DNA of 64,000 nt, taken from Nevskia sp. (GTDB lineage: Bacteria > Pseudomonadota > Gammaproteobacteria > Nevskiales > Nevskiaceae). This document shows positions 29,952-37,608 of the stretch, piece by piece. The position numbers and the translations under genes were made by a program. Position 1 is the stretch's first letter. Every line of letters starts with the position of its first letter. Below the pieces are notes generated by a model. It worked only from the letters and a program-made list of their open reading frames with translations, was not told where the DNA came from and made no database searches. The DNA lies in contig JADHNH010000002.1 of NCBI GenBank assembly GCA_016779605.1, forward strand, positions 1 to 64,000. Direction: 5' to 3'.

Positions 29952-31814
29952 TCACGATTCTGCGCTGATAACCACCCGGTTGCGGCCTTCGTTCTTGGCC
30001 CGGTAGAGCGCGCGGTCGGCGGTGCCGATGAGGTCGCCGGCGCGCTGCTGCGGGCGGAATTGCGCGGCGCCGACGGAGATCGTGACCGGGCCGATCACCT
30101 CGTCGCGCACGGTCAGCTGCAGGCGTTCGACCTGCGCGCGCAGCTCCTCGGCCTTGGCTGCCGCCTGCGAGCCGTTGGCGCCCGGCAGCACCACGGCGAA
30201 CTCCTCGCCGCCGAAGCGGCAGGCGATGTCGCTGTCGCGGAAATGCTTGGCGATCTGGCCGCCGATCAGCCGCAGCGCCTGGTCCCCGGCCTCGTGGCCG
30301 TGGACGTCGTTGAACTGCTTGAAGCGGTCCACGTCGATCATCAGCATCGACAATTCGTGCCCGCGCCGTTCGGCCAGGCCGATCTCGCGCGGCAGCGTCT
30401 CTTCCAGGTAGCGCCGGTTGAACAGGCCGGTCAGCGGATCGCGGATCGACTGCAGGCGCAAGGTCTGGCGCAGCTTGATGTTGGACACGGCGATGCCGAC
30501 GCGGTCGGCGACCATCCCGGCGAGTTGCTCGAAGTGCTGCCGGTCCTCGCTCTGCAGGGCGTCGTCGCCGGCCTTGTCGGCCTGCAGGAAGCCGATGCCG
30601 ACGATGTCGCCCTGCGAGATGATGGGGATGCAGACCACTGCGCGGTTGCCCGAGTCGGCACGGATGTGCGCGCAGCGCAGGCCGTCCTGGCCGTTCCAGT
30701 GCAGCTGGCCGCGCCGCAGCGCCCAGCAGGCGTCCGGCGAGAACACCGGCTCGCTCGAATCCGGGTTGCCGAAGCGCACCGTCGACTCCAGGTAGTTGCG
30801 CGAGGCGTGCAGCAGGTACATCGAGCCCGAATAGCCGGGAAACAGCGCCGGCGTGAACGTGCTCAGCGGGGCGGCCACTTCCTCCACCGACTGGCAGGCC
30901 TGCAGGATGCCGCTGAGCTCGGACAGCGTGGTGATCTCGTGGTTGGTCTGCATCAGCCGGGCGAAGCCCTGCTCGAGCTTGCGCTTGTTCTCGCGCAGCT
31001 CCGCCTCCACCCGCTTGCGGCTGGTGATGTCCTGGATCTGCGAGATGAAGTGCAACGGCTTGCCGTGCTCGTCGCGCAGCATGGCCACGTCGAGCTGCGC
31101 GCGGATGACGTAGCCGGACTTGTGGAAATAGCGCTTTTCCATCCGGTAGCTGTCGCCCCTGCCCTCGATCAGCGTGCGCACGTGCTCCAGGTCGGTCTGC
31201 AGGTCGTCCGGATGGGTGATGTCCTGGAACGTCCTGGACAGCAGCTCGGATTCGCTGTAACCGAGCATCGCGCACAGCGCGTGGTTGGCGTCGATGAAGC
31301 GGCCGTCCAGCGCCACCGCGGCCAGGCCGATTGGCGCGCTGTCGAACGACAGGCGGAAGCGCCGCTCGCTTTCCTGCAGCAGGTGCAGGGAATCGTTGAG
31401 GCGGCGGTTGGCCTGGCCGAGTTCCTTTTCCGCCGACATGCGCCGGTCCAGGAAGCGGGAGACCTGCGGCAGCAGGGGCCACAACGCGGCCGCGGTGGCC
31501 AGCGAAGCGGCCGCGGTCAGCGCCAGCAGGATCGCGGCGAGGCGATGCAGCGGCATCCAGATTTGGAGCACCGCCATCCAATGGGTGATGCCGCTGGCCA
31601 GGATGAACAGCCCGAACATCACGAAAATCGATTTGAACCGCAGTCCGCCGTTGCGGCGCACGAACAGGAACAATGCGAACGGGATGGCCAGGAAGCACAG
31701 GCCGATCAGGACATTGGCCGCCAGCGTCGCCCAGAACAGCAGCGGCTCGGGTTCGACAAAGGCGCCCGCAGCGGCCAGGGCCTGCCCGTATGAATTCGCG
31801 GCCAGCAGGTTCAA
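29952..31814 (-). CDS. Diguanylate cyclase with ethylene-receptor-like membrane domain, PAS and GAF
   Basis: A 620-residue membrane enzyme predicted to make c-di-GMP. Residues about 25-115 hold three TM helices that resemble the plant ETR1 ethylene-binding domain: NVLIGLCFLAIPFALFLF and FGLFILASGITHWM. ETR1 D25, C65 and H69 correspond to N34, S74 and H78 here at identical spacing. A PAS domain (about 150-268), a GAF domain (about 295-445) and an active-looking GGDEF domain follow, with GGEEF at 535-539 and the inhibitory-site RxxD (RDSD) at 526-529. An A/T-rich palindrome lies just upstream. Confidence 0.93.
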   Translation of the reverse strand: MNLLAANSYGQALAAAGAFVEPEPLLFWATLAANVLIGLCFLAIPFALFLFVRRNGGLRFKSIFVMFGLFILASGITHWMAVLQIWMPLHRLAAILLALTAAASLATAAALWPLLPQVSRFLDRRMSAEKELGQANRRLNDSLHLLQESERRFRLSFDSAPIGLAAVALDGRFIDANHALCAMLGYSESELLSRTFQDITHPDDLQTDLEHVRTLIEGRGDSYRMEKRYFHKSGYVIRAQLDVAMLRDEHGKPLHFISQIQDITSRKRVEAELRENKRKLEQGFARLMQTNHEITTLSELSGILQACQSVEEVAAPLSTFTPALFPGYSGSMYLLHASRNYLESTVRFGNPDSSEPVFSPDACWALRRGQLHWNGQDGLRCAHIRADSGNRAVVCIPIISQGDIVGIGFLQADKAGDDALQSEDRQHFEQLAGMVADRVGIAVSNIKLRQTLRLQSIRDPLTGLFNRRYLEETLPREIGLAERRGHELSMLMIDVDRFKQFNDVHGHEAGDQALRLIGGQIAKHFRDSDIACRFGGEEFAVVLPGANGSQAAAKAEELRAQVERLQLTVRDEVIGPVTISVGAAQFRPQQRAGDLIGTADRALYRAKNEGRNRVVISAES

Positions 31815-31931: not shown

Positions 31932-31964
31932 GCAGAATCGGTACTCTTTGAGTGCTGATTCTGC
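31932..31964 (-). terminator. Hairpin at the end of the nuo-yceI transcription unit
   Basis: Arms 31932-31946 and 31950-31964 pair over 15 bases with two mismatches (GCAGAATC/GATTCTGC ends) around a TTT loop. It begins nine bases after the yceI-like stop on the - strand. There is no T-run downstream in that direction, so it may be a stabilising hairpin or a weak terminator. Confidence 0.5.
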
Positions 31965-31972
31965 AAAAAAGC

Positions 31973-32713
31973 TCAGGGCGTGCGATCGAATGCCGCCTCC
32001 CGGCCGAGCAACTCGAACTCGACATAGACCTCGTCGCGCACTGCGATCAGGCCGCCGAGCGCGGTGTAGGGGCTGGCGCCGAAATCGCTCTGGCGGATGG
32101 CGAATCGGCCGGAAACGGCCAGGGCCCGGCCGTGCAGCTGCGCTTCCAGCGGCACCAGCAGCGGGCGGCTGACGCCGTGCAGGGTCATCGACAGGCTGGC
32201 GACCAGGTGCGGCCACTCGCCGGCGATCGCCTGGCCATGGATCAGCACCTCGGGAAAGCGTGCCGCATCCAGGTTCTTCGGCCCGAGCATATGGGCGCGG
32301 GTGCCGCTGCGCGCGGCGTCGTCGAGGACGCTGGCGAACGCCGGTCCGGCCCCGGCGCGGATGGCGGGCGGGTCCACCGCAAGGCGCTCCAGGGCGAAAT
32401 CCAGGTCGAAGCGGGCGTCCTTCAGGTCCCCTTCGGGAACATAGGCGTAGCCGGTGAAATCCGGCGCCGACAGCACGTGGTTGTGGCCGGCGCGGGCCGC
32501 CGCGCCGCCGCGGTACACGAAGATGCGCACGCGCGAGGTGGCCGGATCCAGGACGAACACGCGCCCGTTTGCCGCAAGGCCGCGGTATTCCGCAGTCAGC
32601 GCCGCGGCGGTTGCGGCAGGGCCGGCCGCAGCGGGCGGCTGCGGGGTGCCGCCGCAGGCCGCAAGCAGCAGCGCTGCGGCGAGCCCGGCGGCGACCTGCC
32701 GCCGGTTTTTTAT
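31973..32713 (-). CDS. YceI-like lipoprotein (start codon unclear)
   Basis: A frame of about 246 residues behind nuoN. It begins KNRRQVAAGLAAALLLAAC, a complete lipoprotein signal with lipobox LAAC. A YceI-type lipocalin-like domain follows: FVLDPATSRVRIFVYRG, then SLSMTLHGVSRPLLVPL, and GRFAIRQSDFGASPYTALGGLIAVRDEVYVEFELLG. YceI-type proteins bind isoprenoid or lipid-like ligands. No ATG, GTG or TTG precedes the signal within the expected distance. The only codon in place is ATA at 32713-32711, inside the nuoN stop region. Translation may use a rare start coupled to nuoN, or the sequence may hold an error. Confidence 0.75.
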   Translation of the reverse strand: MKNRRQVAAGLAAALLLAACGGTPQPPAAAGPAATAAALTAEYRGLAANGRVFVLDPATSRVRIFVYRGGAAARAGHNHVLSAPDFTGYAYVPEGDLKDARFDLDFALERLAVDPPAIRAGAGPAFASVLDDAARSGTRAHMLGPKNLDAARFPEVLIHGQAIAGEWPHLVASLSMTLHGVSRPLLVPLEAQLHGRALAVSGRFAIRQSDFGASPYTALGGLIAVRDEVYVEFELLGREAAFDRTP

Positions 32714-34215
32714 TGTCCGGCCAGGCCGGAAGCCTGGACGATGGCGATGAACGGGCTGGGAAACACGCCGAGCACCAGCATCAGGATCATCAGCGCCAGC
32801 AGCATCACGCCGCCCGCACCCTGCGCCCAGTCCAGCGGTGCGGAGTACTTGCGCACCCAGGGCGCGCGCAGGTAGAGCTGGGCCATGGCGCGCAGGTAGT
32901 AGAACAGGCCGATGGCACTGCCGAACGCGACCGCGCCCATCAGCACCCACAAGCGCTTGTCGACGCCGGCGGCGAATACGTAGAACTTGCCGATGAAGCC
33001 GGCGGTCATCGGGATGCCCGCCAGCGACAGCAGCGCCACCGTCAGGATCGCCGACAGGTTGGGCCGGCGCCAGAACAGCCCGCGGTAATCCCACAGGGCA
33101 TCGGCGTCGTGCTCGCCGTACGGGCTGGACATCAGCGTCACCACGCCGAACGCGGCCAGGTTGGTGACGACATAGGTCAGCAGGTAGACGCCGACCGCCT
33201 CCACCGCCAGCGGCCCGGCGGCGATGAACGCCGCCAGGATGTAGCCGAAATGGGCGATCGACGAATAGCCCAGCAGGCGCTTGATGTTGTCCTGCATCAG
33301 CGCCAGCACGTTGCCGAGCACGATCGACAGCACCGCCAGCACGGTCATCACGTCGAGCAGGCCGCCGTAGCGGTAGGCCTTGGCCTCCACGAAATAGCGC
33401 AGCAGCACCGCGAACACCGCCGTCTTGGAGGCGGTGGACAGGTAGGCCACCACCGGCGCCGGCGCGCCTTCGTAGACGTCCGGCGTCCATAGATGGAACG
33501 GCGCCAGCGACAGCTTGAAGGCGATGCCGACCAGGATCAGCGCGCCGCCGACCAGCAGCATCGAGTGGTCCGGGCCGGCGAAGCCGCCGGCGCGTTCGCC
33601 GATCTCGGTGAACAGCAGCGAGCCGGTCTGGGCGTAGACCAGCGCCATGCCGAACAGGATGAAGGCCGAGGCCGCCGCCGACAGCACCAGGTATTTCATG
33701 GCGGCTTCGAGCGAGCGCCGTTCCTTCACCAGGTAGCCGATCATGCCGTACAGCGGCAGCGACAGCAGCTCCAGGCCGACGAAGAACGAGGCGAAATGCC
33801 GGCTGCAAGCCATCACCAGGCCGCCCAGGGCCGACAGCGCCAGCAGCAGGTAGACCTCTTCGCGGTTGCCCTTGTGGCCTTCCATGTAGGCGTAGCTGAG
33901 CGTCGCCGTGGCCAGCGCGGTGGCCAGCACCAGCGACATGTAGAACGCCGAGTAGGCATCCACCACCAGCAGGGGCGTTTCCGCGCGCGGGATGACCGGT
34001 GCGCCGGCCGCGCCGGCGAACTGCGGCAGGAAGCGCACCAGGAATTCCGGCAGCAGCAGCCAGGCGCTGGCCAGCAGGGCCAGGTTCAGGCCGATGGCGA
34101 CGACGGTGGCGTTCCACCAATGGTGCCGGCGGAAGGCCACCGCCAGCATCGCCACGACGATGGTGGCGCTGGTGATCAGGATCGGCAGCAGCGGCAGCAG
34201 CGCGATGCCGTTCAT
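32710..34215 (-). CDS. nuoN: NuoN, Complex I membrane subunit
   Basis: An antiporter-like proton-pumping subunit of NADH:quinone oxidoreductase. The product has 501 residues and about 14 TM segments. Family stretches include GLELLSLPLYGMIGYLVKERRSLEAAMKYLVLSAAASAFILFGMAL, the FKLSLAPFHLWTPDVYEGAPAPVVAYLSTASKTAVF block with the key lysines, and NIKRLLGYSSIAHFGY. Its ATG (34215) overlaps the nuoM stop. It is the last nuo gene; the YceI-like lipoprotein follows with its signal sequence starting at the nuoN stop. Confidence 0.97.
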   Translation of the reverse strand: MNGIALLPLLPILITSATIVVAMLAVAFRRHHWWNATVVAIGLNLALLASAWLLLPEFLVRFLPQFAGAAGAPVIPRAETPLLVVDAYSAFYMSLVLATALATATLSYAYMEGHKGNREEVYLLLALSALGGLVMACSRHFASFFVGLELLSLPLYGMIGYLVKERRSLEAAMKYLVLSAAASAFILFGMALVYAQTGSLLFTEIGERAGGFAGPDHSMLLVGGALILVGIAFKLSLAPFHLWTPDVYEGAPAPVVAYLSTASKTAVFAVLLRYFVEAKAYRYGGLLDVMTVLAVLSIVLGNVLALMQDNIKRLLGYSSIAHFGYILAAFIAAGPLAVEAVGVYLLTYVVTNLAAFGVVTLMSSPYGEHDADALWDYRGLFWRRPNLSAILTVALLSLAGIPMTAGFIGKFYVFAAGVDKRLWVLMGAVAFGSAIGLFYYLRAMAQLYLRAPWVRKYSAPLDWAQGAGGVMLLALMILMLVLGVFPSPFIAIVQASGLAGQ

Positions 34216-35744
34216 GGCGCCCCCGCCTGCGACAGCAGGCCTGTGGCCGACTGGTAGAGCTCCTGCACCGCCTGCACCGGCGCGCGCGCCACGTCCAGCA
34301 CCGGCTGCGGGTAGATGCCCAGCAGCAGCAGGATCGCCATCAGGCTCATCATCGTCGCCAGCTCGCGGTAGTTCATGTCCTCCAGCGGCTCGTCGCCCTT
34401 GGGCGGGCCGTAAAACGCCCGCTGCATCATGATCAGCGAATACGCTGCGGCCAGCACCAGGCCGCTGGCCGAGCACAGGGCGATCAGCGGATGCGCGCGG
34501 AACGTGCCCAGCAGCACCAGGAATTCGCCGACGAAGTTGCCCAGGCCCGGCAGACCCAGGCTGGCGGCGGCGAAGAACAGCACGATCGGCGGCAGGAACG
34601 GGAAGCGCGACCACAGGCCGCCCATCTCCCTGAGGTCCCGCGTATGCAGGCGTTCGTAGACCTCGCCGCAGAGGATGAACAGGCCGCCCGCGGAAATGCC
34701 ATGCGCCAGCATGTTGATCACCGCGCCCTGCATCGCCTGGTCGGTGCCGGCGTAGATGCCCACCAGCACGAAGCCCATGTGGCTGATGCTGGTGTAGGCG
34801 ACCAGCCGCTTGATGTCGTTCTGCGCGAACGCCAGCACCGCGCCGTAGACGATGCCGAGCACGCCCAGCCACATTGCCACCGGCGCGAACTGCGCCGAGG
34901 CGTGCGGAAACAGCGGCAGCGAGAAGCGCAGCAGGCCGTAGGCGGCGGTCTTCAGCAGCACGCCCGCCAGGTCCACCGAGCCGGCGGTGGGCGCCTGCGA
35001 GTGCGCGTCCGGCAGCCAGGAGTGCAGCGGCACCACCGGCAGCTTCACCGCGAAGGCGACGAAGAAGCCCAGCATCAGCCACCACTCGGCCTGGGGACCC
35101 ATCGGCGTGTGCAGCAGCACCGGGTAGTCGAAGGTGATGACGCGGGTGGCCTGGTAATGCACGAACACCAGGCCGATGATCGCCAGCAGCATCAGCAGGC
35201 CGCTGGCCTGGGTGAAGATGAAGAACTTGGTCGCCGCGTACACGCGCCCCTTGCCGCCGGGGGCGTTGTGGCCCCACAGCGCGATCAGGAAGTACATCGG
35301 CACCAGCATCATTTCCCAGAAGAAGAAGAACAGGAACAGGTCCATCGCCATGAACACGCCGATGACGCCGCCCAGGTTCCACAACAGGTTCAGGTGGAAG
35401 AAGCCGACGTGCCGCTGCACCTCGCGCCATGAGCAGGCCACCGCCATGATGCCGAGCAGGCCGGTCAGGCCGACCAGGATCAGCGACAGGCCATCCAGCG
35501 CCAGGTGGAAGCTGATGCCGAAGCGCGGGATCCAGGCGAGCTGGTATTCGTGCACCCAGTGGTGCTCCGGGCCCAGCAGGGTGACGCTGTAGTCGCCGGT
35601 GGCCCACAGGTACAGGGTCATGCCCAGCACCACGACCATCGTGCCCAGCGCCACCCAGCGCGGCAGCCCGCGGCCGAAGCGCTCGGTCTGCCAGCACAGG
35701 AAGCCGCCGACGAACGGCAGCATGAACAAGAGCACCAGGATCAT
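34212..35744 (-). CDS. nuoM: NuoM, Complex I membrane subunit
   Basis: An antiporter-like proton-pumping subunit with 510 residues and about 14 TM segments. Hallmarks are [86 protein letters not shown] and [22 protein letters not shown]. The ATG is four bases after the nuoL stop. The end overlaps nuoN by four bases. Confidence 0.97.
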
Positions 35745-35748
35745 GGGG

Positions 35749-37608
<1,860 letters not shown>

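Follow-up and report, generated by a model that had tools for sequence, protein, structure and literature searches.

The window, which is the whole 64,000-nucleotide stretch of Nevskia sp. DNA analysed here (contig JADHNH010000002.1), carries a gene for what is probably a membrane-anchored diguanylate cyclase that has lost, in this lineage, the ethylene/Cu(I) site of its ETR1_N-PAS-GAF-GGDEF family. To judge from its residues, the sensor most likely no longer senses ethylene, and we infer that high-affinity Cu(I) or ethylene binding is absent. The gene (29952..31814, reverse strand, as are the domains, motifs and residues given below) is a complete open reading frame with a TTG start that encodes 620 amino acids, and Pfam assigned its domains. 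The N-terminal domain (aa 26–120, 31455..31739) matched PF25487, the ethylene-binding-type ETR1_N profile, with E=4.1e-25 and 88 bits against a cut-off of 27, covering profile positions 2–96 of 97; this confirms the proposal, made earlier from the letters alone, that the domain belongs to the ethylene-receptor fold family. In a profile search of the whole genome it was the sole PF25487 match, scoring 92.8 bits there. It is followed by a PAS domain (aa 152–263, 31026..31361), a GAF domain (about aa 310–436, 30507..30887) whose Pfam match, at about aa 340–436, is weak (E=8e-5) yet above the cut-off, and a GGDEF diguanylate cyclase domain (aa 457–613, 29976..30446, E=1.4e-45). The GGEEF motif (aa 535–539, 30198-30212) and the RxxD I-site (RDSD, aa 526–529, 30228-30239) are intact and separated by the usual spacing. 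With GG[DE]EF, the substrate and metal residues and the I-site RxxD all present, the enzyme is predicted to be active in making the signal molecule cyclic di-GMP, and the wiring of the sensor to PAS, GAF and an I-site-bearing GGEEF cyclase, as previously suggested, is borne out at the sequence level by Pfam and the motifs. In addition, C363, C381, H383 and C395 of the GAF domain, within a motif CWALRRG...CxH...C, were invariant in 10 of 10 homologues compared and may form a metal or redox site.

An AlphaFold2 model made with ten sequences contains three long helices at residues 24–54, 61–83 and 90–111 (mean pLDDT 81), and residues 1–20 have pLDDT below 50. Foldseek against the PDB returned no match (best E 1.6), and PDB sequences searched with a profile yielded chance matches only; no solved structure of the domain was found there. 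Upstream of the cyclase gene, 31973-37608 is occupied by nuoL-nuoM-nuoN and, directly downstream of these, a yceI-like lipoprotein gene, which shares the strand of the cyclase gene and shortly precedes it, but does not adjoin it in congeners. Relatives showed no synteny with the nuo locus. Between the cyclase and yceI-like genes, an interrupted palindrome, GCAGAATCGGTACTC-TTT-GAGTGCTGATTCTGC, is located at 31932-31964. It is present as a single copy in the genome and was absent from 12 relatives searched with up to two mismatches; the intergenic RNA folds with z -4.45, and a scan for a U-tailed terminator was negative.

The sensor aligns with ETR1 without gaps from D25 to H69, and beyond H69 it has three residues fewer before LTAxxS. 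BLASTP against an ETR1 sequence gave 27% identity (E=2e-10). The correspondence of N34, I44, P45, S74 and H78 to ETR1 D25, I35, P36, C65 and H69, first drawn in the sequence-only reading, stands, as does its observation that the copper-ligand Cys is lost and the His retained. The residues required in ETR1, which we take to be D25, Y32, I35, P36, I62, C65 and H69, are kept at four of the seven positions, including I71 at the position of I62; D25, Y32 and C65 are replaced by N34 (31713..31715), F41 (31692..31694) and S74 (31593..31595). The Cu(I) ligand pair is thus incomplete, with S74 and H78 (31581..31583) standing for Cys65 and His69, and beyond the Cys three residues are replaced: Tyr by Phe at Y32, Asp by Asn at D25 and Lys by Leu at K91 (L97). 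Relative to plant ETR1, Synechocystis SynEtr1 and Azospirillum AzoEtr1, all members of PF25487, the domain shares the three helices, the full-domain profile match and the equivalents of I35, P36, I62 and H69, whereas it differs at these four positions, lacks the N-terminal Cys and is joined to a GGDEF output rather than a histidine kinase. A requirement for seven residues is documented for ETR1 (PMC6682694); ETR1 no longer binds ethylene when C65 or D25 is mutated, nor does SynEtr1 when C65 is (PMC11819568). PMC13012798, citing Aman 2025, puts the loss of affinity in ETR1 D25N at about 100-fold. On the other side of the ledger, the domain is not degenerating at random: H69 is kept, as are F58, F61, I62, G66, W77, T94 and S98, which pack the helices, and every substitution leaves the helices hydrophobic. 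These features count against loss of the site, and the retention of H69 is unexplained if no ligand binds.

Two losses had escaped the sequence-only reading, namely Y32F and that of an extracytoplasmic PHGxC motif. Seven relatives with the same architecture, from the same genus and family (L091–L095, L097 and L099; about 45–57% full-length identity), share the whole domain order, the GAF Cys/His set and the GGEEF and RxxD motifs with the cyclase. All seven retain Cys65, His69 and, immediately before helix 1, LPHGYC; the cyclase has neither Cys65 nor LPHGYC, and LAAAGA (aa 13–18, 31761..31778) stands in place of the latter. N-terminal identity is 76% among the relatives and 8% between them and the cyclase. 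No upstream frame of the gene restores the motif, the stop-to-stop frame adding just 10 codons without PHGxC. In a set of 138 domains, 105 had the Cys65/His69 pair intact, and 103 of these also carried the N-terminal Cys; of the two that did not, one is truncated by a contig end. The N-terminal Cys was absent in 30 of 33 pair-less domains, many of them closely related to each other; the pattern count was 28, and two false matches (L058 and L192) were corrected. The loss of the N-terminal Cys along with the copper ligands, a correlation only, suggests that they form one functional unit. The bacterial N-terminal Cys may form a dimer disulfide of the plant-receptor type, as has been suggested (PMC6682694).

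Substitutions at family-invariant residues were concentrated in the sensor half. Of the residues invariant across the seven full-length relatives, 14 of 42 in the sensor and 4 of 113 in PAS, GAF and GGDEF were changed in the cyclase (Fisher p=2.4e-6), with 7 of 8 in the N-terminus, 7 of 34 in the domain, 1 of 41 in PAS, 0 of 17 in GAF and 3 of 55 in GGDEF. When each of the six ingroup relatives was used as the test row instead, 0–1 of 28–29 sensor residues were changed, and the outgroup L099 showed 4 of 32. Furthermore, on a fixed tree and scaled by the remaining tree, the branch leading to the cyclase was 2.5 times longer in the ETR1_N domain than in PAS and GGDEF (bootstrap 1.64–4.34, with 0 of 200 replicates at or below 1); the corresponding excess on other end branches never exceeded 1.4. 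The changed invariant sites and the long sensor branch show that constraint was lost in the sensor only: the output half (PAS, GAF and GGDEF) is under ordinary purifying selection and the sensor half is not. The acceleration, seen in a single sequence, would be compatible with relaxed constraint and adaptive change alike.

We compared 90 distinct domains drawn from the taxonomic family, the order, a 397-genome sample of the phylum and nine named alphaproteobacterial loci. The domain is carried by 45 of 58 genomes of the family, among whose complete domains the cyclase copy scores lowest. Cys occupies the C65 position in 86 of the 90, and Ser (the Nevskia cyclase), Asp, Gly and Leu occur once each; the H69 position is His in 86, Tyr in two and Arg in two, and Tyr is found at Y32 in 84. 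A pattern search of 369 class and 85 order genomes yielded no second domain with Ser at C65, none of the class matches fitting the domain profile. The sequence-only reading asked whether Asn, Ser and His are fixed among GGDEF-fused homologues and took free variation there as refuting its view; Ser at C65 proves to be single to the Nevskia protein in its order, so that fixation cannot be claimed. A later sample contained L160, an HWE histidine kinase fusion from another order, which has Ser at C65 and retains D25, Y32, H69, K91 and the N-terminal Cys. As L160 is a second clean case, the change from C65 to Ser has arisen more than once; L193, a short, weak match with a further Ser at this position, was not relied on. 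Loss of the copper site itself recurs within the ETR1_N family. L057 and L058 (Sphingomonas) have Asp and Gly at C65 and so lack the same ligand as the cyclase through other residues, whereas L019 and L024 (Tyr) and L142 and L143 (Arg) have lost H69. In these proteins and L160 the N-terminal Cys is mostly lost too; they occupy separate places in the tree and, where read, have histidine kinase outputs, unlike the GGDEF output of the cyclase. In L019 and L024, which are histidine kinases from the taxonomic family of the cyclase, His69 to Tyr is accompanied by PHGxC to PHGLS or PHALS, another concerted loss. The kinases L157 and L160, with Thr or Ser at C65 and otherwise near-canonical (D25, H69, K91, N-terminal Cys), may stand at the beginning of such a loss or have altered ligands.

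Fixation likewise fails for Asn at the D25 position, which is Asp in 66 of the 90 domains and H, N, S, E, Q or G in the remainder. Across GGDEF-fused relatives it varies among D, H, N, S, E and Q, mostly changing together with its K91 partner, and Asn there is ordinary; the N34/L97 combination of the cyclase falls in this group, whose remaining members keep Cys65 and His69. Where D25 is Asp, the K91 position is Lys or Arg in 63 of 66, and H, N, E and Q mostly occur with Leu or Met. This covariation agrees with a proposal, derived from models, that D25 and K91 form a salt bridge (PMC11819568, PMC13012798). Two covariations, followed on a poorly resolved 135-domain tree and counted on well-supported branches only, gave 2 and 3 independent pairs, and the sign tests were not significant. 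Seven Rhizobiales-like domains without copper ligands (L168, L175–L179 and L181) carry the charge-reversed combination of Arg at D25 and Glu at K91, and those read are HWE kinase fusions.

The idea that Asn, Ser and His form a fixed alternative site, suited to a different metal state or ligand, is not supported; loss of the old function fits better, because the sensor also lacks Y32 and PHGxC and evolves faster than the rest of its own protein. In a broader form, it is possible, though we hold it rather doubtful, that the three-helix fold has been turned to a different signal, for example redox, the state of the membrane, another small hydrophobic ligand or a metal, the last through H78 with W79, M87 and H90, which are specific to the cyclase, plus M80 near the outer face. 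H78 is retained, the sensor-specific acceleration fits adaptive change too, and W79, M87 and H90 each occur in at most 2 of 90 domains, H90 replacing a Tyr kept in 86. Moreover, whole clades of Rhizobiales-like HWE kinases maintain ETR1_N domains without a copper site, which indicates that the fold is useful without copper. However, M80 is found in 13 of 90 ordinary domains, and one sequence cannot reveal a conserved replacement motif. The more specific proposal, that the fold was rebuilt as a copper-independent (or H78/M80/M87/H90-ligated) sensor controlling c-di-GMP, one of several independent re-uses lacking Cys65, we consider unlikely; that W79, M80, M87 and H90 might make a CusF-like Met/His/Trp site is speculation.

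Persistence of weak Cu(I)/ethylene binding, in which Ser and His would be the ligands and Asn would act as it does in the low-affinity ETR1 D25N, appears improbable. H69 is kept, ETR1 D25N alone is still functional at low affinity (PMC13012798), and L160 combines Ser at C65 with otherwise retained D25, Y32, H69, K91 and N-terminal Cys; but Ser coordinates Cu(I) poorly, mutation of C65 abolishes binding in both ETR1 and SynEtr1 (PMC11819568), and in the cyclase Y32 and PHGxC are also gone. It is very improbable that the substitutions reflect a sequencing or assembly error or a misplaced start. The assembly is in 188 contigs and Cys to Ser needs one base (TGC to AGC), yet 14 family-invariant sensor residues differ within an intact frame, the remaining protein is normal, and PHGxC occurs in no upstream frame.

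Under the favoured reading, loss of the copper site, the protein presumably descends from a cyclase that responded to ethylene or Cu(I), and the metal site would have been lost in this lineage together with its accompanying N-terminal motif. The three helices would stay on to anchor the protein in the membrane and to support dimerisation; because they are hydrophobic and their packing residues are kept, the protein should remain membrane-bound and dimeric, and dimerisation is needed by GGDEF enzymes. Input would most likely now arrive via the PAS and the Cys/His-rich GAF domains, with product feedback probably acting at the I-site. We file the predicted protein as not an ethylene receptor. The domain family, its diverse bacterial outputs and natural variation at D25 are already known (PMC7700396, PMC13012798), and no paper on ETR1_N domains without a copper site or on the PHGxC correlation was found among open-licence papers. 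The pairings D/K, H or N with L or M, and reversed R/E suggest that D25 and K91 change as a unit, which bears on the salt bridge proposed to couple ethylene binding to output. Bacterial proteins with ETR1_N are readily called ethylene receptors, but a strong profile match need not come with a copper site, and the N-terminal PHGxC together with Cys65/His69 gives a rule for sorting ETR1_N proteins.
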